Shown here: piece by piece, positions 2,117 to 50,500 of the stretch
Layout of the letters: each line of letters starts with the position of its first letter
Position numbering within the stretch: the stretch's first letter is position 1
DNA from: Bolinopsis microptera
Taxonomy: Eukaryota > Ctenophora > Tentaculata > Lobata > Bolinopsidae
Direction: 5' to 3'
NCBI RefSeq assembly: GCF_026151205.1
Contig: NC_087083.1
Span: 7,480,460-7,544,459, forward strand
Length of the DNA: 64,000 nt
Notes under the pieces: model-generated
Told to the model about the DNA's origin: nothing
Databases searched by the model: none
What the model saw: only the letters and a program-made list of their open reading frames with translations
Made by a program: the position numbers and the translations under genes

Positions 2117-3090
2117 GGCAAATAGGTAAAATACCGACCTGCTGTTGTTACGCTAATAGCCCTCTAATAGTCCTCTAACAGCACTCTAACTCTCTAATAG
2201 CCCTCTAACAGCTGCTTAATAGCCATAAAAAACACAAGTAAGCGCTGGCAGCTGGCTAGGGGGCTGTTAGAGGGCTGTTAGAGGGCTGTTAGAAGACTGT
2301 TAGAGTCTGTTAGAGGGCTGTTAAAGGGCTGTTAGAGGGCTGTTAGAGGGCTGTTAGAGGGCTGTTAGAGGGCTGTTAGAGGACTGTTAGAGGGCTGTTA
2401 GAGAGTTGTTAGAGAGCTGTTAGAGGACTGTTAGAGGGCTGTTAGAAGGCTGTTAGAGGGCTGTTAGAGGACTGTTAAAGGGCTGTTAGAGGGCTGTTAG
2501 AGGACTGTTAGAGGGCTGTTAGAGGGCTGTTAGAGGGCTGTTAGAGGGCTGTTAGAGGACTGTTAGAGGGCTGTTAGAGGGCTGTAGGAGGACTGTTAGA
2601 GGGCTGTTAGAGGGCTGTAGGAGGACTGTTAGAGGGCTGTTAGAGGGCTGTTAGTGGGCTGTTAGAGGACTGTTAGAGGCTGTTAGAGGGCTGTTAGAGG
2701 GCTGTTAGAGGGCTGTTAGAGGGCTGTTAGAGGGCTGTTAGAGGGCTGTTAGAGGGCTGTTAGAGGGCTGTTAGAGGGCTGTTAGAGGGCTGTTAGAGGA
2801 CTGTTAGAGGACTGTTAGAGGGCTGTTAGAGGGCTGTCAGAGATGTTAGAGGGCTGTTAGAGGGCTGTAGAGGCTGTTAGAGGGCTGTTAGAGGCTGCTA
2901 GAGGGCTGTTAGAGGGCTGTTAGAGGGCTGTTAGAGGGCTGTTAGAGGGCTGTTAGAGGGCTGTTAGAGGGGCTGTTAGAGGGCTGTTAGAGGACTGTTA
3001 GAGGACTGTTAGAGGGCTGTTAGAGGGCTGTCAGAGAGCTGTTGGTGTTAGCGTAACAGCTCTCTAACAACCGTTCGGCACCTATTTGCC
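2117..3090. mobile_element. Inverted-repeat (foldback-like) element enclosing a minisatellite
   Basis: The left arm contains GGCAAATAGGT (2117-2127) and GTTACGCTAA (2147-2156). The right arm carries the reverse complement of both in mirrored order, at 3048-3057 and 3080-3090. Inside the left arm a few CTCTAACA-type units point opposite to the main array, so the structure could fold back on itself. No ORF is present. I infer a foldback or MITE-type element whose subterminal repeat expanded. Target duplications were not identified, so the outer ends are uncertain. Confidence 0.6.
2258..3045. repeat. 11-bp minisatellite (gggctgttaga)n
   Basis: About 70 copies of gggctgttaga fill the interval, with variants such as ggactgttaga, single-base insertions and contracted units. 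A short oppositely oriented cluster of the same unit sits at 2158-2220. The array lies between the inverted arms described for 2117-3090. Confidence 0.95.
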
Positions 3091-13445: not shown

Positions 13446-13934
13446 ATGTCACATGTCACATGTCACATGTCACATGTCACATGTCACATATCACATGTCA
13501 CATATCACATGTCGCATGTAAAATGTCACAAGACAAATGTCACATGTCACATGTCACATGTCACATGTCACATGTCACATGTCACATGTCACATGTCACA
13601 TGTCACATGTCACATGTCACATGTCACATGTCACATGTCACATGTCACATGTCACATGTCACATGTCACATGTCACATGTCACATGTCACATGTCACATG
13701 TCACATGTCACATGTCACATGTCACATGTCACATGTCACATGTCACATGTCACATGTCACATGTCACATGTCACATGTCACATGTCACATGTCACATGTC
13801 ACATGTCACATGTCACATGTCACATGTCACATGTCACATGTCACATGTCACATGTCACATGTCACATGTCACATATCACATGTCACATGTCACATGTCAC
13901 ATGTCACATGTCACATGTCACATGTCACATGTCA
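13446..13934. repeat. 7-bp satellite (atgtcac)n
   Basis: About 69 copies of the heptamer atgtcac run almost without error; the few variants (atatcac, atgtcgc, aagacaa) lie near the left end and at one position near the right. Because 7 is not a multiple of 3 and the unit has no stop, all three forward frames stay open and give Met-Ser-His-Val-Thr-Cys-His repeats. These are not genes. Every unit contains CACATG, an E-box type hexamer. Confidence 0.97.
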
Positions 13935-24081: not shown

Positions 24082-24454
24082 AATCACTGTTACACTCACT
24101 GTTACACTCACTGTTACACTTACTGTTACACTCACTATTACACTCACTGTTACACTCATTATTACACTCACTGTTACACTCACTGGTACACTCACTCTAA
24201 CACTCACTGTTACACTCACTGTTACACTTACTGTTACACTCACTGTTACATTTATTGTTACACTCACTGTTACACTCATTATTACACTCATTATTACACT
24301 CACTGTTACATTCACTGTTACACTCACTGTTACACTTACTGTTACACTCACTGTTACACTCCCTGTTACGCTCACTGTTACACTCGATGTTACATTCACT
24401 GTTACACTTACTGTTACGCTCACTGTTACACTCATTGTTACACTCACTGTTACA
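24082..24454. repeat. 12-bp satellite (cactgttacact)n
   Basis: About 31 copies of a 12-bp unit with substitutions (cattatt, cactggt, cgatgtt). The period keeps two minus frames and one plus frame open, yielding Val-Ser-Val-Thr and similar repeats that are not genes. Confidence 0.95.
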
Positions 24455-24589
24455 CAATGGCTGAAGAGTGCAGAGTTGTGAGACTTTTTTTTCTGAGACT
24501 TTTTATATCCTTGTCAGACTTCAAAAGCCCGTCGTTCACTACAACCTTCACAATACTATCACAGCTAACTAGAAATGTCACTTGTAAGG

Positions 24590-25231: not shown

Positions 25232-28200
25232 ATGAACACACATCTCCTCATTATAACATTACAACTCACCCTCACCTTAGCAACACGGCTCTCTTTCCTC
25301 GATCACAATCATTTTCAGTAAGTATTTCTTAGTTTGTTTCCAACAGAGTAAGCTGCTTTCCCTATATATTCAATATTCAAGTATGTAATGTTCTAAGATA
25401 GGAAAATGATGAATGTGAAATTGCCCAAAATTGTCCCTGCTTGGATGGTTAAAATTGAAAAGGTATAAATATAACCGACAATATATTTGCAGGACAGAAA
25501 GCTGCTTCCTCCAACTGCATGACAACATCACGTGGTATGACGCAGACACAAGCTTGTTGCTTAGCAACGGTCACATTTCAAAACTCAACGACTGTCAGAT
25601 AACAGCCAAACAGGTCAGCAATTCCCACAACAATTGGGTCATTCAATTTGTGGACATTTTTAGAAATTTCGAGAAGTCTTACGATAAAAACTCTATTGTT
25701 CTGAAATTTTTAAATTAGGGGGTTCAAACCCCAGAGGGGACATCAAAATTGTCGCGTCGAACAGCATCACGCATTACTTACACATATTAACAAGTGCATA
25801 ATTTCAGTCAGTTGGGGACGAAGTTCAGTTTATAAAACAGATATCTACTGACATAATACTGATGTGCAGAGCGGGGGAGGTATATCAGACTGATCCTCTC
25901 TCTCGGAGATTTCTCTCGTCAGTCAGGACAATGGTAAGTGTCGGGAGACCAGTTACTTTCACTATCTTTCTTTAGATGGTACATGAAATATTATAATACT
26001 TTTTGGTGTTTCATGCGATTTATTTAAAACAGTTTGTTGTTCTTAACCTGATAAATTTTCAGAGTTCTACCAAACTAGGTCACTATGCAGCAGTACTGGG
26101 GGTGAACTTACAACGGCCTGGATTTCAAACAACTTGTATACTTTCTCTTATTCGGACGGAACCACTAAAATTTCCAAATATCTTCCCCTAACGAGGAATT
26201 TTGTAAAAACCATTGGATTAGAAGCAAGTGATAGCTCTGACGCAACCAAGCTTATTTTCAAACACGGGAATTTTGTATACATGATTTATACGGTTAGTAA
26301 ACTTAACATTAATTTCATATAGTGAGCCGTGTATGACAAAGTGATGAATCCATAGAGTTTAGTTTCGTAGATTGTATCAGGTAAGATCATGGGCAGATCA
26401 TAAATACATCATGCATATATTGCATAAGTTTACGATATCGGAATTATTTGATCATGTAAGAGAGAATCCATGGTATTTCCAACGAAATAATTGTGCGCTT
26501 CTATGAGCTGGCAGTTAGGATCTATATTCTACTATACAATATGTTTCGTGTTAAGTATCCTATCGTAATATCGCATCATAACCCAGGGTATTTCGGGTGA
26601 AGCAAGAGTAGCCAGATTTTGCGAGAACGACCAGGGGAATTACGGTAGTTTCTCCACCGAGAGATACGGTCAACTGTCCTGCAACATGCTCGAGGTAAGA
26701 TCAGGACAACAAGAAACTAACAATAGTTATTCTCACCATTCTCACTATTCTCACTATTCTCACCATTCTCACCATTCTCACTATTCTCACTATTCTCACT
26801 ATTCTCACTATTCTCACTATTCTCACTATTCTCACTATTCTCACTATTCTCGCTATTCTCACTATTCTCACTATTCTCAATATTCTCACTATTCTCACTA
26901 TTCTCACTATTCTCACTATTCTCACTATTTTCACTATTCTCACTATTCTCACTATTCTCACTATTCTCACTATTCTCAATATTCTCACTATTCTCAATAT
27001 TCTCACTATTCTCACTATTCTCACTATTCTCACTATTCTCACTATTCTCACTATTCTCACTATTCTCACTATTCTCACTATTCTCACTATTCTCACTATT
27101 CTCACTATTCTCACTATTCTCACTATTCTCACTATTCTCACTATTCTCAATATTCTCACTATTCTCACTATTCTCACTATTCTCACTATTCTCACTATTC
27201 TAACTATTCTCACTATTCTCACTATTCTCACTATTCTCACTATTCTCACTATTCTCACTATTCTCACTATTCTCACTATTCTCACTATTCTCACTATTCT
27301 CACTATTCTCACTATTCTCACTATTCTCACTATTCTCACTATTCTCACTATTCTCACTATTCTCACTATTCTCACTATTCTCACTATTCTCACTATTCTC
27401 ACTATTCTCACTATTCTCACTATTCTCACTATTTTCACTATTCTCACCATTTTCACTATTCTCACCATTCTCACCATTCTCACCATTCTCACTATTCTCA
27501 CTATTCTCACTATTCTCACTATTCTCACTATAATTCTCACTATTCCCAGATAGACCACACCATCCTGCTGGACGCCCAATACGATCCTACCAGATCACAA
27601 CTCCTCCTTCTAACCTCTAGAACTCCAGTAGAGTTATCAGGCAGGGTACTCTGTGCTATATCTATTCAGGAGATAGACCGTCAACTGGATACTGGACAAT
27701 TCCTCGACTATGATGAAATGGTTGGTTCCCAATCCAAAATACTGCTTTAAAAAACGATCCATTTGATAAGCTCAAATAAGTCTCATTTTACTTTATTTTA
27801 CTTCATTGTACCTCATAACCTCATTTATTCATCTCTGTGTCTATAAATTTCTTCAATTGTACTTTTTAGGGAAAGAGCGTGGATCGTCAGGAAGCAAAAT
27901 GAACTGTAACGCGATAAACCAAATGAATTATCTCACTCAGTTACTTGATCTGATAAAAGGATCGCACACCCTCCTCACCCATCAAAAGAACTACAACAGT
28001 TTCAGGACCAAAGAGAACGTCTGGTACCTTGCTACTGGTAAGTGGTTCGTTAGACGTAGCTCGACGGTTGGGTGGAGATTTTTTTGTAGCTGCGGTGTAT
28101 AGATTGAAGATAGGTATTCGAGGAGATAAAAGATGTTGGTACAAGGCAACAGTTAATTAACATTGCGTAGAGACGCAATATGCTTTGAATTTTATAATCC

Positions 28201-39966: not shown

Positions 39967-40370
39967 AGTACTCGGCCGCTCCCACTAAATCGCTCGCCCA
40001 AATTTTTAAAACATTCTTGTGAAAAGGCCCTGACTCTGAGGGTATATAAGTAACCGGAATCGGTGTATTTTTGGACGCTGATTCCAAATCACCCCCATAA
40101 CGTAGGATAAAAATGCTCCCTGGAGAGTTATGGACAAAAAACTGTTTTGCTCACGTGAAAGGCTAGTAAAACACGAATTTGATTGTTTAGGGCTCGGGTT
40201 AGGGTTAGGGTTGTGGTTAGGGTTATGGATGGGGTTAGGGTTACTGTTAGGGTTAGGGTTGGGATAATGGGATAAGGGTTTATGTAAAACCGTTTTTCTC
40301 GGCTGCAAAACCATAAAAACCAAAGTCACGTGATAGTTTTTGGGCGAGCGAATTAGTAAAAGCCGTACTC
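39967..40370. mobile_element. MITE with telomere-like core and CACGTG motifs
   Basis: Inverted ends: agtactcggc...ctaaatcgctcgcccaaa on the left and ttgggcgagcgaattag...gccgtactc on the right. Inside lies gggttagggttagggttgtg and further TTAGGG-like units (about 40193-40265), plus tcacgtga and cacgtg words near both ends. Two reversed relatives lie at 60331-61090, showing a dispersed family. Confidence 0.75.
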
Positions 40371-41399: not shown

Positions 41400-42540
41400 T
41401 GTGAATGTAAAAACTAACGTATTGATCATATATAATTATAACCGTTATGGATTCTTAAATCTAGACTAATCAAACTAAATTAAAATAGAAAATCAGGAGC
41501 AGTGTACACTGACAAAAACTTTTAGTTCAAAACCGCTTTCATGACAAAGAAAAACTCTTAAACTAATCTCCGCTACCCCAAAACAGTATACACTTTAATA
41601 AGTTCTTCAAATAAGTACTTCTAAAAAAAACTGTCCGACGCGCGACTCATTGGCTTGTGGAATTCTTAAGAGTGTCTGAATATTTGATCAGACAATATAA
41701 ATGTCAAACTTTTATTTCTACAGTATTATTTTGATGTGCGAACAGGGGGTCAGTGGTTACTGATAAGCTTGCTTCGAACGATTTCCAACCTTAGATACGT
41801 AACATTTGATATCTCATTAATACGTAGGTATTGTTTAATGTTTATGTTACATACATTATTTGTGCAACAATCACGTACACTAAAATATATCTTTAACCGT
41901 CGAATTTTTTGCTTTTTTGATCGATAATAGGACATTTAATCTATAAGTGGAGTTTATTTAAATTTTTAATATAACACAAGATGACTGGAGATGTAACTAG
42001 GTTATCAGTTACTGGGCCTGACATTCCGCCAAACTTCTATTTATGAACATAATATGTAACAATATGTAATAGCCTGGTAGGTTATCAGTATAAACCGTCG
42101 GGTATATTTAAAAATTTTCATGAGTTGATTCATATGGTGGTTGGCAATGTTTCCTAATGGTCGTTTTTTAATTAAAAACTTTTCAAATTTTACAGATTAC
42201 AGCAATGAAGTAATTAAAATTCATTAATTAACTTAAGGGAACATTTTTAGAATACGACTTCTGGGACTTATTCCTTGTTATGGGTTTGACTCAATAAACG
42301 GAATTTTCAAAGTACGTATTGGTGATTTTAATACTTTCAACACTACTATATAACAAATAATTAGAGGATGTACCATGGAAGTCTAGAGTACCCGCAACAA
42401 GAAATGCAGCTGTAAACGACTTGGTAACGGGGTGCATGTGAGCTCTGGGGGCCAGTGGCATCAGAAGACTGGCTATCAGCCTTGAAAATAAGATGAGTTC
42501 TTTAGATTCATGTCACATCTGCACTGCATCTCCATCACAA
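41400..42540. other. AT-rich spacer
   Basis: No gene seen. Overlapping frames on opposite strands at 41736-41935 are chance. The right part (from about 42370) may already be the 5' untranslated region of the following LINE. Confidence 0.4.
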
Positions 42541-43049
42541 TGACACAAACACTCTCTCCTTCACTACCCTACCCTACCCTAGCCTAGCCCTACCCCTCCC
42601 TCCTTTTACCTGTTGCGGGTACTCTGGACTGCATGGACATCCTTGAATAGAGGTATTTTATATAGTAGTGTTGTGGTATTATACTGTGTACATGTATATA
42701 TATTCTATCCTATATATCAATATATTCTATATCTATATATATACTGTATCGTTTATATATACAAACTTTTCCTTACCCCCGCCTCCCCTTCCTCTATAAA
42801 TTGTACTCAAATCCCACACCCAACCTGCTATTGACTTACTAAATAACCTCTATATCTCTACATTGGGCCATAGCAGTCCACCCCGCTCCCTTCCCCTCCC
42901 TTCCCTATTCCGCCAAGCACCAACATCTCTCCAAATCACATCATAAACTTTCATGTAATTAGACCTTGTGTTCCTTTTTTATTTTATTTTGAAAATGATT
43001 TTGTTTAACTTTACCTCTCTACCTGATATCACTCACCCCTGTCAAAACT

Positions 43050-44236
43050 GTGTTACTCTCATTATCTTATTTTCAGGCTGTTGGTTGGTTTGATGGTGCC
43101 CTGGCCCCCATCTCATCATGTGCTCCCTACCATCTATTCTTCATGCAAGACAGAACTCTTACTGAAGATAATTCTCGATCAACGAGATCGAGAAACAACT
43201 CCTCTCCCCTGGATGGAAATGTTATTGACTTTACGAAACCTATCACCATCACGACACCCGGATGCTATGTGCTTAGCAATCCTGACTCTGGTTGTAGAAT
43301 CAGTCTCTTTCAGGACGTGTTTGCAAGCCAACTGTGTGACCAATTTTCCTCTGAAATCGAAAATACTGGCACCCTTAAACAGTACAACACAATCCATAGG
43401 CAGTCTCAGGCACCACTTCCAAGACTCTCGTCATGGTTTGGACCCGTAGACTATGCGTTCTCAGGAATCGTAATGAAAGCTAATTCTGTCTCCCAATGTC
43501 CTCGCCTTATTGCAGCATATCAGAACATGGCCGAAAACCTCTTCACACCCAACAACATTGATTGCTCCTCTGACTGCTTTTTGATCAACCAGTATAGAAC
43601 TGGACGTGATTCCTGTGGTGAGCACAGTGACAATGAGCCAGAGGTCGACCTCTCAAAACCTGTCGTTACTCTGTCACTTGGCCAACAGCGCTGCATGCTC
43701 ATCAGAGAGGCTAAGAACCCTGGAAATGCCATCACAGTCAAACTCGACCAGGGTTCAGTTCTTGTAATGCATGGTACTGATTTCCAAAAGAAGTATACGC
43801 ATCAAATACCCAAAGATAATGTGATCACTAATTCACGTACCTCTGTGACCTACAGGACCTGCAGCTCCACTTTCCTAAGAAACCGAAGTGCCCTATCTAC
43901 ACCCCTGAAAGAGATATCTATCACTCCTATACTTGCCCCAAGACCCCTGGAGTCTCAGGCTCACCATCGCTACCTCTGCACAACAGACGTAGATCCTCCT
44001 TGTCTCTGTCTAGCTTCTCACAAGTTGACACCAGCTCAGTTGGGTCTCCAGTGGCCAGTAGTTCTCCTTCCATAACCAGCAGCAAAACATCAGTCTCTGA
44101 TAGTGATACATTACCTCTCAGCATAGAAGCCATGCTTGAAGCCATTGATCTAATGAAAGACAAAACCGTGAAAAGCGAACTTTCTCGCCATGGCAGCACA
44201 AACTCTGGAACCCCTCTGGATTGTAGAAAAGACTGA
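43050..44236 (+). pseudogene. LINE ORF1, N-terminal part: AlkB-type Fe(II)/2-oxoglutarate dioxygenase
   Basis: From Pro-Arg-Leu-Ser-Ser-Trp-Phe-Gly (the AlkB substrate-loop region) the frame runs through C-F-L-I-N-Q-Y-R-T-G-R-D-S and H-S-D-N-E-P-E, the Fe-binding H-x-D (codons at 43623 and 43629). The distal Fe ligand His is in Y-T-H-Q-I-P-K (43800). The 2-oxoglutarate-binding Arg pair lies in R-T-S-V-T-Y-R (43836 and 43854). V-T-L-S-L-G-Q-Q-R and G-S-V-L-V-M-H-G complete the fold. AlkB enzymes remove alkyl groups from nucleic acids, so one repairing element RNA or cDNA is conceivable. After about 43860 the sensible frame shifts by -1 to a Ser-rich linker, and near 44228 by -1 again into the coiled coil. 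No convincing ATG was found; the frame is open from 42999. Confidence 0.8.
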
Positions 44237-45327
44237 AGAAAGTTGCAAAAGCATGTCACAAACGCCTGAGCACGCTTCTTGTTGAGCCTCCAGTAGTCTC
44301 AGCTGAGCCCGAATGCGTTACCCATTCCCTCCAAACTTTGGAAAACTCTGTTATTGATCTACAATCCAAAATAAGTCTACAACATAGCACCCTCCAAACA
44401 CTTGTCTTATGTTCTGACAGTAATTCCAATCAAAAAGGTAGTGCCAGCCCCCCTAACCTGTCTAATGAACTCAACACTATGGACAAGAGACTTGAAAAGT
44501 TAGAGGATATAATGAGCAGCATAAACGAAAAACAACATGAAACTGCCACCTCCCTTAAAGCCTTCGAAGCAGATGTCACTGCAATTAAGAACAAAGTAGA
44601 TGACTCTAAGGCCTGCCTACAGTCTCTCCAGCTTAATGACCGCACCACCCCATCCAGAAAAAAGCCATCGCCTCATCCTCAAAACCAGAACCACCCAACC
44701 CACAGCCCTAGTAGACAAACGCGAAAACCAAAAAAGGTTCTACTCCTACATGACTCCCAGATGAACAACTTTCTACCTGAGTCATTTTCCTCTGGGTTCA
44801 AGGTGGAAAAAATGAAAGTAGGCTCTTATACTGACATGATAAAAGACCACTGTATGAGAGATGTCATTAAACAGCCAGAGGTCGACTGTTACATTCTCCA
44901 GCTTGGAGTCAACGACTACAGATACAGAACCTGCTCTGTTAATAAAGCGATTGAGGATGCAAAATCAGTCATCGATAAACTCCTCTCGAGCTCCAGTGCA
45001 AAGGTTGTCATCTCCCTACCCACCCCAACCCCTGGATTAATCAGTGAACTTACCAACCAATTTGTCTCAGAAATAACCCAATTTGTCTCAGCTAAAAGAG
45101 GGTTAAGTGACTTTTACCGCCGCCTATATACAGTAAACAATACTGGAAACTTTTCCCGTGCCATCTCTGCTGCTGAGTCATCCCAAGACTCTCCTAACCC
45201 GTTGAAGGAGGACCAACTTCATGTCTCAGAGTATGGTTTGAAAAAACTTTGTTTGAATATTAAACTTGGCCTATACCGTGCCTTTGGTATGAGATCCCAT
45301 AGAAAGCAGCCCCCTACAGAGCGTTAG
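44227..45327 (+). CDS. LINE ORF1, C-terminal part: coiled coil and SGNH esterase
   Basis: The frame opens after a TAG at 44224-44226 and begins basic (K-R-L-K-K-V-A-K-A). A predicted coiled coil follows (M-D-K-R-L-E-K-L-E-D-I-M, then T-A-I-K-N-K-V-D). The SGNH-hydrolase fold comes next: L-L-L-H-D-S with nucleophile Ser at 44755, L-Q-L-G-V-N-D (block III Asn), and D-Q-L-H with the Asp/His pair at 45211 and 45220. Such esterases occur in CR1/L2 ORF1 proteins, where they are thought to act in RNP or membrane handling. It ends at TAG, 52 bp before ORF2. It was probably continuous with the AlkB part before the frameshifts. Confidence 0.8.
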   Translation, partial: KRLKKVAKACHKRLSTLLVEPPVVSAEPECVTHSLQTLENSVIDLQSKISLQHSTLQTLVLCSDSNSNQKGSASPPNLSNELNTMDKRLEKLEDIMSSINEKQHETATSLKAFEADVTAIKNKVDDSKACLQSLQLNDRTTPSRKKPSPHPQNQNHPTHSPSRQTRKPKKVLLLHDSQMNNFLPESFSSGFKVEKMKVGSYTDMIKDHCMRDVIKQPEVDCYILQLGVNDYRYRTCSVNKAIEDAKSVIDKLLSSSSAKVVISLPTPTPGLISELTNQFVSEITQFVSAKRGLSDFYRRLYTVNNTGNFSRAISAAESSQDSPNPLKEDQLHVSEYGLKKLCLNIKLGLYRAFGMRSHRKQPPTER

Positions 45328-45379
45328 ATTAACCCTAAAATTCAAGAAAAAACAAGTATCACGAGATCAAGTCGCTGTG

Positions 45380-48300
45380 ATGTCCTGGAACATCCAGGAC
45401 AGCACAGGAGACGGGTCTAACAAATTTGAAAATAGCGAATTTTTGTCAATCCTCAAACAAGCTAACATTCTTTGTCTCCAAGAAACAAAGAAGCAAGTTA
45501 AGATTGAAGGATACCTCTCTTTTAATAGCAACCGCAAAAATTCACGCTCAGGAGGGGTCTGCATTCTTGCTGAAAATGACCTAAGAAAAGGTGTCTCTAG
45601 TGTGCTTTGTAATGAATCTGATGACATTATTGTTGTTAAACTGGACAAGAACTTTTTTAAACTTGATTTTGACCTATTTTTGGTATGTTATTATATTAGC
45701 CCTGCATACTCGTCCTATGTCAAGAAGAATCCAGATTATACTGCTAATACCTTCTCTGCTCTTGACTCTATCTGTATCAGACTACGTCAAAAGGGAGAAG
45801 TTATTATGTGTGGCGATGCAAATGCAAGAACTGGAAAACTCCCAGACTATATCCTTTCCTGTAATGCACCTGCCATCCATGACATCTATAACGACATTGG
45901 ACTCGAGCACGACATAGAAGAACCAAGAAACAATTCTGACCTTACAATATCTGAACCCCACTGCCAACACTTTCTTGACATGGTTATCAATAACCAACTT
46001 AAAATTCTTAATGGTCGTACCCTTGGGGACACCACTGGAAAAATGACCTGTCACAAATACAATGGAAGCAGTGTGGTTGACTATTTTGTAATCACCTCAT
46101 GGGCAAGAGATCATGTAAACTCTCTCCAAGTAAAAGAGTTTACATCATACTCTGATCATTGTCCATTAGTCTTGAAACTCACTACATTTGAACCATTTGT
46201 CGCAAACTTCCAGCTCCCAGACTTTTCTAACTTTCCTTGTGGCTATAAGTGGGACAGCAACACCTCCCATTCACTATTTAAAAAAGCCCTTACCTCGCCC
46301 GAAATTATCAACAATCTGGAAAGCATTGTGACAAATGAATTTAGCAGTACTCTGGAGGGCAATCACGAACTGAACGATGCAGTCATAAAATGTCTCCACA
46401 GTGCTGCTGATATAGCCTTAAAAGTGAAAAAGCCTCCCAAAAATTCTGCCCGTAAGAAATGGTTCGACCCACAAGTCAACTCCTCGCGGCGGAACCTTAA
46501 TAGGCTAGCAAACCGGCTTGGTAGTAAGCACTGTAACAGTATCCTCAGACGAGAATACTTTAAGCAACGCAACAAGCATAGCAATTTTGTAAACAGTAAG
46601 AAAGTAGCTTTCCTTAAGAAGTTAAATGAAGCTATAGAAGAAGGTCACATACTCGACTGGAAAAAATTTAAACGGCTTAAACAAGAACATGACACTAGCC
46701 CCTTACTTGACAAATTTGATTTAGCTAGCTTCCATGACTTCTTTGCATCCCTTTATAAAAAACCAGACCAGGAGCCAGATCTCACTCACCACAATCACAA
46801 ACATTACCCTGAACCACCAGATCTGGATATCCTAAATAAGCTCATGTCAGAATCTGAAGTGACCTCTGCCATCAAAAATCTCAAAAAAGGTAAAAGTTGC
46901 TCAAACGACTTGATATCCAACGAGATGCTTCAGAGCGTAACTCCGCTTTGTCTCAAAGCCATCCTCAAAAACTTCAACCACTCACTGGTCTCCGGTTACT
47001 ATCCATGGCACACCAGCATCATTACTCCTATTTACAAGTCTGGCAACCCTTTCAGCCCGGACAACTACAGAGCAATAGCTGTTGGTAGCTGTATGGGTAA
47101 ACTGTTTTCTAGCATCTTACTTGAGCGTCTCCTGCACTTCAAAAAGCTCTACTGCCCTGACCCAAAAGAACAACTAGGGTTCTCGAAGGGTGCTCAAACA
47201 AATGACCACGTTTTTACCCTTAAGACAGTCATTGACAAATATACCAAGGTTAAGAAAGCTCGCCTCTATGCATGCTTTGTTGATCTAAGAAAGGCCTTTG
47301 ACACTGTATGTAGGGACCTCCTTCTGCACAAAATCACATGCCTTGGAATAACTGGAAACTTCTTCAATTGCCTAAGTGATATGTATAGAAACTCAATAGC
47401 TCATATAAAATTCTCCAAACTCTTGTCCCCTAATATTGACATTGGAAAAGGAACAGAGCAGGGACACCCCCTATCACCGGACCTTTTTAAAATCTATATC
47501 AACGACTTGTCATCTCTCCTGAAATCTGTTGGTGATTATCCTATTCTAGCTGACGTCCTAATATCACATCTGCTCTGGGCTAACGATCTTGTCCTACTTG
47601 CCCTAAGTCCCAAGGCCTTGCAAGACAATATAAACATCCTATTCGACTTCTGTAACTCTATGGGCCTTGAAGTAAACATTAAAAAAACCAAGATTCTCAT
47701 ATTCTGCCCTCCTAAAAGAAAACAATCCTATGAAACATTCATTTTGGGAGGCCAGCCCATCCAACACACCGAAAAATACTGCTATCTTGGCATTATATTC
47801 CACAGAAATGGATCTTTTACAGCAGCAAATACTGAACTGAGGGCCAAGGCTCTCCGTGCTCTCTATGGCCTCAAAGGCAATATCGTCAAAGATGCCCTCT
47901 CTCACCGTTCCCTAAACATTCTATTTGACTCTCTAATAAAACCGATACTGCTCTATGGCTGCCAAATCTTATGTCCTCACTCAAAAACCATGAGATACCT
48001 CTCCAAAACAGATAGCAAAGCCAACCCCCAGCATACTCTCAGGTACATCTCACAAGATCACTATGAAAGATTCCACCTTAAGTTTATCAAGTGGTCCTTG
48101 TCTGTCCATTCAAAAGCATCAAATATAGGCTGCTGGGGCGAAAGTGGGCGCCACCCCCTCTTCTTTGAAGCCTGCAAACTTGCAATAGATTTCTATAGTC
48201 GCCTTGAAAGCACTGAAAATGAACTTCTCTCCGCTGCATTTCACGAGCAGATTATGCTGGGCCTTCCCTGGTACACCAACATCTCTAATCTTCTCACCAA

Positions 48301-48868
48301 ATATAACTTCCCCCACTCATCCTCTTCAAAATCCAAGCTCTCTACCCAAATCAGTCACAACATGAGGGAAGAATTTGTGGATACCTGGAAATCTGCCAAG
48401 GCATCCTCACCTAAATTAGAATTCTACAATCAAATTAAACATGATTTTGAACCAGAAACATACTTAGGAGTGGTTAAGATCCCCGATGCTCGGAAAAGCT
48501 TAACAAGGTTTCGTATTAGCTGCCACAATCTTTACATTGAGAGGGGCCGTTACGAAACCCCCCTAGTACCAAGAGAACATCGATGGTGCACTTTTTGCTT
48601 TTTCAGCAAGGGGCTTAAGCCTATTGAGGACGAAATTCATGTTCTAACTGACTGTTTACTCTACTCCTCAGTTAGAGAAAAATTTAACTTCCATCCCAAA
48701 AATATTACTGACCTAGCCGGTTTGCTATCCGATAAAACTCTAGACCCTACAAAATTTACTGCCACAGCAAGAGCAATCCATTCAATTGTCTCTGTGAACG
48801 AAAATTTTACTGCCTACTATAAGAGCCCAGATTTCCACTCAAATACTGGCCAATGCATAATGCTATAG
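45380..48868 (+). CDS. LINE ORF2: endonuclease and reverse transcriptase, 1162 aa
   Basis: An APE-type endonuclease opens the protein (S-W-N-I-Q-D, L-C-L-Q-E-T, M-C-G-D-A-N-A-R, Y-S-D-H-C-P). The RT follows: Y-R-A-I-A-V-G-S, F-V-D-L-R-K-A-F-D-T-V, G-T-E-Q-G-H-P-L-S-P-D-L, then the catalytic box written L-L-W-A-N-D-L-V-L-L-A, so the first Asp of the usual A-D-D is Asn (AAC, 47582-47584). A Cys-x-x-Cys...His...Cys knuckle near the end (W-C-T-F-C-F, E-I-H-V-L-T-D-C) is a nucleic-acid-binding finger seen in many LINEs. The ORF is otherwise intact, indicating a young copy. The ATG at 45380 is the first in frame. Confidence 0.9.
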   Translation: MSWNIQDSTGDGSNKFENSEFLSILKQANILCLQETKKQVKIEGYLSFNSNRKNSRSGGVCILAENDLRKGVSSVLCNESDDIIVVKLDKNFFKLDFDLFLVCYYISPAYSSYVKKNPDYTANTFSALDSICIRLRQKGEVIMCGDANARTGKLPDYILSCNAPAIHDIYNDIGLEHDIEEPRNNSDLTISEPHCQHFLDMVINNQLKILNGRTLGDTTGKMTCHKYNGSSVVDYFVITSWARDHVNSLQVKEFTSYSDHCPLVLKLTTFEPFVANFQLPDFSNFPCGYKWDSNTSHSLFKKALTSPEIINNLESIVTNEFSSTLEGNHELNDAVIKCLHSAADIALKVKKPPKNSARKKWFDPQVNSSRRNLNRLANRLGSKHCNSILRREYFKQRNKHSNFVNSKKVAFLKKLNEAIEEGHILDWKKFKRLKQEHDTSPLLDKFDLASFHDFFASLYKKPDQEPDLTHHNHKHYPEPPDLDILNKLMSESEVTSAIKNLKKGKSCSNDLISNEMLQSVTPLCLKAILKNFNHSLVSGYYPWHTSIITPIYKSGNPFSPDNYRAIAVGSCMGKLFSSILLERLLHFKKLYCPDPKEQLGFSKGAQTNDHVFTLKTVIDKYTKVKKARLYACFVDLRKAFDTVCRDLLLHKITCLGITGNFFNCLSDMYRNSIAHIKFSKLLSPNIDIGKGTEQGHPLSPDLFKIYINDLSSLLKSVGDYPILADVLISHLLWANDLVLLALSPKALQDNINILFDFCNSMGLEVNIKKTKILIFCPPKRKQSYETFILGGQPIQHTEKYCYLGIIFHRNGSFTAANTELRAKALRALYGLKGNIVKDALSHRSLNILFDSLIKPILLYGCQILCPHSKTMRYLSKTDSKANPQHTLRYISQDHYERFHLKFIKWSLSVHSKASNIGCWGESGRHPLFFEACKLAIDFYSRLESTENELLSAAFHEQIMLGLPWYTNISNLLTKYNFPHSSSSKSKLSTQISHNMREEFVDTWKSAKASSPKLEFYNQIKHDFEPETYLGVVKIPDARKSLTRFRISCHNLYIERGRYETPLVPREHRWCTFCFFSKGLKPIEDEIHVLTDCLLYSSVREKFNFHPKNITDLAGLLSDKTLDPTKFTATARAIHSIVSVNENFTAYYKSPDFHSNTGQCIML

Positions 48869-48996
48869 GACCTCAAAAATAGTATTATAAAACATTTCTA
48901 TTTTATCCCTACACATTTGTAAATAACTAGAATTGTGTAACCTTAAATTATTTCAGAATTATAACTATTGTGAATTCAATAAAATAATTATCACTT

Positions 48997-49028
48997 TTGT
49001 ATCCTTGTATCCTTGTATCCTTGTATCC
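48997..49028 (+). repeat. LINE 3' octamer tail (ttgtatcc)4
   Basis: Four perfect tandem octamers end the element, about 15 bp after an AATAAA. CR1/L2-type elements end in such microsatellites rather than poly(A). Confidence 0.9.
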
Positions 49029-50500
49029 TATTGGCACATAAAATTTACGGAAATTGGCCTTTCTCGAAAATTGGCCCATTTCTCACGATTCAACACTGGA
49101 TTGGCTGATAAGCTTAAATAATTCTTTAATCTGTCTGTAGACTATTATTTGAAAGGAAGGGAGAATGGAAAATGTAATACCAGCAAACAGGCTTCTTACC
49201 TACTGCCGATGACTCAATTATACAATTGAACATTAAAGATTCTTCTGCCTATCATAAAACATCCTATTAAACCTACTTTGGTACATTGCAGTGGATTGGG
49301 AAGGCCTTCAATCACACATAATCTATATTTTTGTTTAAACAGAAAGATTTAATGACGGAACCTTTACAGTTTACTACAACTAAACTAGCAAAAACCCATA
49401 TAACTCTAACATTGTGTCAAGAGACTAAAATATTTATTCATTTCGCGATTTTGAAAAAATAGGGGTCCAAATTTTGGGACCTAAACTTAAAGTTCTTTTT
49501 CCTTGAACAATTTTTCCGTTCATCATTGTTTTCAAAAATTTTAAATGAAAGGTTACGAATGGACGTTATTGCAAAAAAAGAGAGATTTTGGAGAACGAGG
49601 TAGGTGGGTTTAGATATGTCGTCAGTCCGTCCGTCCGTTACCATGACAACGAGAAATACGCGCGGCGCGGCGTATGTATTTGAATGAATTAATATAATGC
49701 GATATAATATTAATAAGCCCAATTTGTCCGTGACACTTATAGTGTATTAGTATATGAATTGAGTATAGATCACTTTTGCTTCAAATCTCTTATATTACAA
49801 ATAAAAGTTAAGTTCTACGGCAATCTTTACGGCAATTAAATTGAATCACAAGAGTTTTCCGTATCCTAACAGTTAAAACCATAATATTTTGAAGTGAACT
49901 AATTTATGATCAGAGCTTGCTGTGAACGGATATCTAGCGTCCGCCATGAAACAACAAAAACGGGCGCAATTCTTGTTTATTCTTTAACACTATTACTGGT
50001 CACAAGGCAATTAAAGCATTTGACCCAGACAAACAAGTTTCAAGGCTATATTTCTCACGGTTTTCGCGGAAAGTTGTTTTTAAGTCGTTGTCATGTTGTC
50101 AGTAAAATGGCAACAGATATAATACTTATAGTTATATATCTTGGCATCTCGCCTTACGAAACGAAACAAAACGAAACACAGTATTTACTACCCCGCTACT
50201 AGTTATGCGACAAAGATATTGTATAATACATAACTAAATAATTTACACAATAGTAATACGGTGCCTGCATGTCTGAGCGGCTTTCTTCAAAAACTTGCTC
50301 TCCTCATCGGAGCAGAAAGTAAAAACAAAACACGGGTCTCATAAAATCAAAAAATACTAAATAACGTTAAAGAAATAATATCAGATTAACCGTCGCAAAA
50401 AATGGTAATAGTATACATACAATATAATTTATTTTATTGACACACCGAAAAAAACCAACTGGTCAATAACCAAAAAAACAATAAATTGATACTCGACAAA
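49029..50500. other. Spacer, no supported gene
   Basis: Frames at 49438-49722 (minus) and 49906-50202 (plus) lack motifs or splice support. Nothing else was recognised. Confidence 0.4.

Follow-up and report, generated by a model that had tools for sequence, protein, structure and literature searches.

Organization of the element in the window

The window analysed here, a stretch of 64,000 nucleotides of the Bolinopsis microptera genome (contig NC_087083.1, positions 7,480,460 to 7,544,459 of the forward strand), carries at positions 42328-49029 a long interspersed nuclear element (LINE) of 6.7 kb, which we call family A. Its first open reading frame (ORF1) encodes an AlkB-type dioxygenase domain followed by a coiled coil and by what is probably an SGNH esterase, and its second (ORF2) encodes an endonuclease and a reverse transcriptase (RT). 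The following features were assigned.

42328..43142, + strand: 5′ untranslated region; its start is common to copies (for 13 of the 18 other copies the alignment with copy L002 begins at its position 743-777, and L002 position 743 corresponds to window position ~42328)
43143..45327, + strand: ORF1 (AlkB, coiled coil, probable SGNH); broken in the window copy by two small indels, open over 721-884 amino acids with both hits at 10 other places
43326..43856, + strand: AlkB-type 2-oxoglutarate-Fe(II) dioxygenase domain; PF13532 match (E 5.4e-22) at residues 110-286 of the 42999 frame, ALKBH3 match in PDB (6.9e-15)
43623..43631, + strand: HxD iron-binding motif (H-S-D), kept in 20/20 rows of the AlkB alignment
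43800..43802, + strand: distal iron-binding His, kept in 20/20 alignment rows and unvarying in a further alignment of 18 rows
43836..43856, + strand: R-x-S-V-T-Y-R with the 2-oxoglutarate-binding Arg pair, from codon reading and alignment
44455..44658, + strand: coiled coil; several weak Pfam coiled-coil matches, all below cut-off, at about residues 77-144 of the 44227 frame
44740..45324, + strand: probable SGNH/GDSL esterase; Ser 44755, Asn 44911, Asp 45211 and His 45220, with S, GVND and DQLH blocks
45293..48868, + strand: ORF2, endonuclease and RT, a stop-to-stop frame with RVT_1 at 47042-47797
48869..49029, + strand: 3′ untranslated region, ending in (TTGTATCC)4.1; the octamer also occurs in copies L031, L032, L033 and L035

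Pfam matches in ORF2 to Exo_endo_phos_2 (E 3.2e-8) and RVT_1 (E 9e-26) show the presence of an apurinic-type endonuclease and of the RT of a retrotransposon lacking long terminal repeats (LTR). An earlier reading made from the sequence alone had treated 42999-45327 as a single frame. In the window there are two, 42999-44075 and 44227-45327, with a third (43832-44236) between them, and the first Met of ORF1 is at 43143; the single frame exists at ten other places. The RT catalytic box is WAND in the window copy and WADD in two relatives, X1 and X2, and the window copy is probably dead. The octamer tail described in the sequence-only reading is present (TTGTATCC repeated 4.1 times at 48997-49029) and is shared by four of the five other 3′ ends fetched; it was unseen in the fifth (L034), where ORF2 sequence lies instead.

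The same reading had suggested a Pfam search of the 43050-43870 translation as a check. Such a search of the 42999-44075 frame yielded PF13532 with an E-value of 5.4e-22 (79.4 bits, with a curated cut-off of 31.2). The solved relatives found by phmmer in PDB were ALKBH3 (6.9e-15), ALKBH2 (1.4e-7) and E. coli AlkB (0.0024). The predicted active-site set (His 43623, Asp 43629, His 43800, Arg 43836 and Arg 43854) is found at these codons, and the PRLSSWFG and LINQYRTGRDS blocks are both present. A chance motif is excluded by the PF13532 and ALKBH3 matches. The esterase assignment is probable: the S, N and DxxH residues are there, but profile support is weak, with Pfam matches below cut-offs (E 0.024 and 0.043) and an hhalign profile match at a probability of 19% (E 0.0012). 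Esterase-type (type IV) ORF1s are defined as having no further structured domain, and the ORF1 of family A departs from this definition by its AlkB domain.

The AlkB domain is part of a dispersed element

The genome searched comprises 265 Mb, and all statements on spread refer to this one genome. Whole-genome searches scored the best 144 of 615 candidates in a first run and the best 150 of 753 in a second, which had one of the further AlkB places as its query. Among the scored candidates, 19 places including the window belong to family A at ≥87% identity (L001-L018 and L021). AlkB and SGNH lie together in one open frame of 721-884 amino acids at ten of them (L002, L005, L006, L007, L009, L010, L011, L012, L013 and L016); the L016 frame is without the first 41 query residues, ORF1 start included. 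A 5′ end ~800 bp upstream of ORF1 is common to 13 of the 18 other copies (L023 being taken together with L016 as the other piece of the same copy).

These copies bear on an alternative in which AlkB belongs to a host gene, or to one of its exons, beside or around a LINE insertion, or arose as a chimera of one copy. In its favour is the ORF1 in two frames of the window copy alone, but it is contradicted by the ten one-frame copies elsewhere and by a 5′ end that is common to copies and lies upstream of AlkB. In addition, the ALKBH2- and ALKBH3-like genes recognised as the host's own are distinct loci, and the AlkB tree places them in neither LINE group.

At least 15 family A places contain SGNH only, and seven of these AlkB-less copies were fetched. 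Six align to the element, starting at positions 44477, 44201, 44585, 44698, 43800 and 44659, a scatter expected for 5′ truncation; the seventh, L066, gave no alignment. An alternative AlkB-less ORF1 within family A was ruled out by this pattern on 7 of the at least 15 places. The dispersed copies, the six different 5′ starts and the octamer tail common to four of five fetched 3′ ends are hallmarks of a LINE, and an older relative on C32 (42% identity in AlkB, many stops) keeps the AlkB-then-SGNH order. Because the AlkB-less copies fetched look 5′-truncated, AlkB does not stem from a host gene into which a LINE inserted; the one-frame copies and the common 5′ end likewise refute this explanation, which we consider, together with the chimera, extremely improbable. 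The common 5′ point, the host ALKBH genes elsewhere and the truncation pattern therefore support an AlkB that is retrotransposon-borne and selected. The interpretation given in the sequence-only reading is thus supported in part; its proposal that the domain erases methyl marks or repairs the template is an inference.

Selection was measured as the ratio of nonsynonymous to synonymous substitution rates (dN/dS; Nei-Gojobori method with Jukes-Cantor correction) between A1, the window type subfamily, and A2, the second one. The value was 0.057 for AlkB (bootstrap interval 0.028-0.103), i.e., purifying, 0.241 for the linker and coiled coil (0.175-0.330) and 0.138 for SGNH (0.084-0.223). In family A, AlkB is thus the best-kept part of ORF1, with an interval overlapping that of SGNH. 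All unsaturated dN/dS values were well below 1.

AlkB domains in other LINE families

With family A and three host genes set aside, the best 144 of 615 candidates contained ~118 further AlkB places with 25-36% identity and frames of 324-1003 amino acids. Both searches combined give at least 228 distinct AlkB places besides the three host genes, a lower bound since only the best candidates were scored. The places read among the 228 were 18 representatives outside family A, some further copies of those families and the family A loci; the remaining ones were taken as LINE-borne by frame length alone and may include a further host ALKBH gene. The representatives stand for one family or subfamily each (B1-B3, C1-C5, D1-D2 and E1-E8, names coined in this analysis).

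AlkB followed by an SGNH-like part was found in 18/18 of these ORF1s, as was a complete HxD...H...R-x5-R set. The Fe- and 2-oxoglutarate-binding residues were complete in 17/17 LINE rows of one alignment and in 8/8 further families. PF13532 was detected in nine of ten LINE ORF1s scanned, family A included (E ≤2.1e-13; the scan left out B2 and E1-E8), the tenth, L042, giving only a weak PF03171 match. A profile of the B-E AlkBs matched the solved structures of ALKBH3 (1.1e-27) and of a DNA N6-methyladenine demethylase (1.8e-5). We conclude that AlkB inside ORF1 is a standing feature of many LINE families in this genome.

The ORF1s differ in layout, AlkB being internal in B-E and N-terminal in family A. 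In B, a coiled coil was seen by eye in front, and a PHD finger stands at the start of the D-family ORF1 (D2, 9.8e-6; D1, 0.0017, below cut-off). In D and C2, the frame that follows ORF1 opens, as judged by eye, with another Cys/His-rich, zinc-finger-like stretch ahead of the endonuclease (noted in L044, L045, L046 and L055). L046 is seemingly a nested insertion, with a 5′-truncated D element in frame within a C-type ORF2 and a chimeric open frame for endonuclease, AlkB and SGNH. As for the SGNH-like parts, GDSL_2 matches in the other LINE ORF1s scanned with Pfam reach an E-value of 3.9e-6, L047 and L048 give no match, and the C/E3-E8 SGNH profile matches SGNH structures at 1e-4; the B/E1/E2 profile matches the C/E profile at a probability of merely 1.6%.

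Three host ALKBH genes were recognised: L039 (ALKBH2, 3.9e-60), L040 (ALKBH3, 2e-39) and L038 (ALKBH3, 1.6e-27). The L040 protein has a long N-terminal part with an RG-rich start, and L038 is a second ALKBH3-like gene. A tblastn search of phages returned 12 records with AlkB-like matches (25-43%), and a scan of viral contigs for relatives returned 2 stretches, neither of them related.

In the aligned motifs, HxD is followed by E in 31/33 rows, the exceptions being L081, from a phage, and L082, from a bacterium, which have HxD but not this E. R-x-S-x-T-x-R is present in 25/25 LINE rows, and R-x-N-x-T-x-R in 3/3 host rows and 3/5 bacterial or phage rows; the former was dropped as a LINE-only mark, since L081 and L082 also have S. 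The residue after HxD varies among 20 LINE subfamilies (A1, A2, B1-B3, C1-C5, D1-D2 and E1-E8): 11 have N, 3 have S and 6 have D. N at this position was likewise rejected as a LINE-only mark, a bacterial AlkB (L079) having it too. Judged by sequence, this residue probably corresponds to D135 of E. coli AlkB, a position that tunes base choice. Since the match to D135 has this basis and L079 also has N, a shift of base preference among LINE AlkBs is only a lead.

Captures and exchange of ORF1

The AlkB tree comprised 29 rows (the near-duplicates A1_L005, A1_L007, A2_L012 and B1_L025 were left out) and was rooted on L081 and L082, both added by a hand-set motif. The 18 B-E rows form one clade (support 100/99) with long inner branches, and the B-E capture is therefore old. 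The two host ALKBH3-like rows form a clade of their own (99/98) with neither LINE group inside, so that the LINE AlkBs do not appear as ALKBH3 orthologues.

The RT tree had 15 rows, with C, D and E segments taken at the expected distance downstream; ORF1 was read through to RT without a gap only in B1, B2 and B3. The sequence-only reading had called the window RT CR1/L2-like, a label that was not borne out. In this tree, which is without named reference RTs, it does not join the other AlkB LINEs: it groups at 100/100 with the AlkB-less X1 and X2, and its identity to the B-E RTs is 25-33%. The remaining rows fall into three other clades, one of B and E1, one of C, E3 and E5, and one of D. By their motifs the B-E RTs are presumably CR1/Jockey-like.

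Two histories were weighed for family A. A single ancient capture could underlie all LINE AlkBs, that of family A among them, the domain having later changed its place inside ORF1. An approximately unbiased (AU) test did not reject one clade of all LINE AlkBs (p 0.313), and AlkB lies upstream of an SGNH-like part in every family read, as this history would have it. In the free tree, on the other hand, family A groups with cellular AlkBs at a weak support of 81/65, and the domain is N-terminal in A and internal in B-E. Furthermore, X1 is without AlkB, and a scored AlkB match within 8 kb on the same strand was found for 0 of 85 distant A-type SGNH places (the 23-34% rows among 148 listed, fragments of higher identity being left out). 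Because of the differing position of AlkB, the AlkB-less X1 and the 85 SGNH places, we favour a second AlkB capture, made by the window family, which appears likely, although not proven; a single capture is a serious but lesser possibility. Some of the distant SGNH places sit in open frames of >2000 amino acids.

Within B-E, the D rows and the B rows group alike in the AlkB and RT trees. E5 (loci L087 and L097) groups with C4 and C5 by AlkB (91/84) and SGNH (95/92) and with E3 by RT (98/98; 86% identical). This discord may reflect an exchange of ORF1, or an RT that belongs to another copy. The SGNH tree was built without B3 and D1, in which the block I pattern was missed; C4, C5 and E5 are without DxxH by the strict pattern, and the long branch of D2 makes some joins unsafe. 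An exchange is plain in B1 (L026+L036) and B2 (L037+L073+L052, L076 and L077), whose ORF2s are 98.1% identical over 2753 bp and whose alignable ORF1 parts are 65-69% identical, with the switch just before ORF2. The junction was found in 3/3 B2 copies examined. B1/B2 is a recent, replicating ORF1 swap, and ORF1 moves between elements.

Possible function of the AlkB domain

Among the evidence for AlkB as an RNA-cleaning domain is its best solved match, ALKBH3, followed by ALKBH2. ALKBH3 acts on RNA and prefers single strands. The AlkB of the orchid Gypsy element, which binds RNA and demethylates in vitro (PMC9289625), is a further argument. With these points, the complete catalytic set and the purifying selection, we lean towards the view that the selected AlkB in the ORF1 protein (ORF1p) of the LINE is an active demethylase that would hold and clean the element's own RNA before copying. 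ORF1p would multimerise on the element RNA by its coiled coil, and the AlkB domain would bind this RNA and strip methyl groups from it: 1-methyladenine (m1A) or 3-methylcytosine (m3C), as do ALKBH3-type enzymes, and perhaps 1-methylguanine (m1G) or N6-methyladenine (m6A). The SGNH part might tether the particle to membrane lipid. At the target, the ORF2 protein would reverse transcribe the cleaned RNA. The element could gain in two ways: base modifications that impede reverse transcription or mark out the RNA would be removed, and an esterase-type ORF1p would be supplied with a structured nucleic-acid-binding domain, absent from published ORF1ps of this type. According to the available parts of PMC7968990, base modifications can block reverse transcription, laboratory use of AlkB lifts the block, and E. 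coli AlkB prefers m1A and m3C while D135 variants also act on m1G or m6A.

Several results weigh against this proposal. AlkB is not the most constrained part between C4 and C5 (dN/dS 0.137, C-terminal part 0.117) or between E1 and E2 (0.154 and 0.121), several deeper pairs are saturated, and between A1 and A2 the interval for AlkB overlaps the one for SGNH. Single-sequence AlphaFold models had low confidence both for AlkB (predicted local distance difference test score, pLDDT, 32.4), whose jelly-roll fold is thus putative, and for the family A SGNH part (pLDDT 45.5, too poor to judge its fold). The close RT relative X1 (L091), whose whole ORF1 was read, is without AlkB, and none was seen in the partly read ORF1 of X2 (L092). 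One substrate for all LINE AlkBs is not assured, given the varying residue after HxD. Finally, AlkB enzymes also act on DNA.

The last point leads to a different substrate. AlkB could work on DNA, at the target site, on the cDNA or on the freshly made copy, by demethylation or repair (e.g., of 3-methylcytosine or an N6-methyladenine mark), and thereby aid insertion or later expression. ALKBH2 and E. coli AlkB do match the domain, the DNA N6-methyladenine demethylase matches the B-E profile, and the PHD finger at the start of the D-family ORF1 (D2 and, below cut-off, D1) is of a chromatin-reading type. We nevertheless find action on DNA unlikely, as the domain sits in ORF1p, an RNA-packaging protein, rather than in the endonuclease-RT protein, and ALKBH3, with its preference for single strands, is the best match.

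Alternatively, AlkB may be kept purely as a nucleic-acid-binding module with no chemistry. X1 and X2 retain an SGNH-like ORF1 end with His or Ala in place of the catalytic Ser, and enzyme folds may therefore persist here without catalysis. Esterase-type ORF1ps in Repbase are described in the available text of PMC3905857 as having no structured RNA-binding domain, their way of holding RNA being left open, and a binding module would suit them. The full set of Fe and 2-oxoglutarate residues is, however, intact in every LINE family read and would be needless for mere binding, which makes this explanation quite improbable.

With RNA cleaning retained as the favoured function, a wider picture can be drawn tentatively. 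The LINEs could form a guild in which AlkB is the core of ORF1p that binds and repairs RNA, a template-cleaning enzyme of the retrotransposition particle that clears methyl groups blocking RT. Its base specificity may have drifted (N, S or D after HxD), and at least two captures may have been spread by ORF1 exchange.

Relation to known systems

ALKBH3 and ALKBH2 are the best sequence matches of the LINE AlkBs and have the same catalytic set but are cellular repair enzymes outside a LINE context. Plant RNA viruses offer another mobile RNA-based replicon with AlkB, located in the virus replicase and with no reverse transcription. In the open-access literature searched no LINE with AlkB was found, and cases may lie unnoticed in Repbase entries. 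The available text of a survey of Jockey superfamily ORF1 types (PMC4120745) nowhere has the words AlkB, 2OG or oxygenase, nor does that of PMC3905857 have AlkB or oxygenase.

The nearest parallel is a Ty3/Gypsy element of the orchid Phalaenopsis, also a retrotransposon with an AlkB-type 2-oxoglutarate domain, for which the available portions of PMC9289625 report RNA binding and demethylase activity in vitro. That element is of LTR type and recent in Phalaenopsis, and it has AlkB, an m6A demethylase named ALKBH5-like by the authors, in an additional ORF; here the carriers are LINEs of many families with AlkB inside ORF1 and ALKBH3 as the nearest relative. SymbioLINE-Dnmt of Symbiodinium, as presented in the accessible sections of PMC5890265, resembles the present elements in that a LINE encodes, in the ORF ahead of RT, an enzyme that modifies nucleic acids, is under purifying selection and is lacking from other LINEs of the genome. 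It belongs to a dinoflagellate, however, and its enzyme is a DNA methyltransferase, a writer and not a demethylase, or eraser. CR1/L2 elements with esterase-type ORF1, e.g., ZfL2-1, have in ORF1 a coiled coil with an SGNH esterase, the latter probable in the present elements, and likewise have the endonuclease-RT in ORF2 (PMC3905857, PMC4120745, available text), yet are described as being without AlkB or another structured RNA-binding domain (PMC3905857). The present LINEs have a putative eraser in ORF1 across many families, which combines the orchid feature (AlkB in a retrotransposon) with that of Symbiodinium (a modifying enzyme in a LINE).

An AlkB in an esterase-type ORF1p offers a direct, testable answer to the RNA-binding question left open in the available text of PMC3905857. 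A LINE that carries its own putative eraser of nucleic-acid methylation is also a naturally occurring example of a retrotransposon in conflict, or in co-operation, with RNA modification, and the many diverged copies are a rich natural variant set for enzymology.

Other features of the window

A degenerate, chromosome-internal repeat of TTAGGG type lies at 40187-40260, ~2 kb upstream of the LINE. The window also contains long tandem arrays of short units: TAGAGGGCTGT repeated 72.1 times at 2257-3043, ATGTCAC repeated 69.9 times at 13446-13934, TCACTGTTACAC repeated 31 times at 24084-24455 and TATTCTCAC repeated 90.6 times at 26728-27545.

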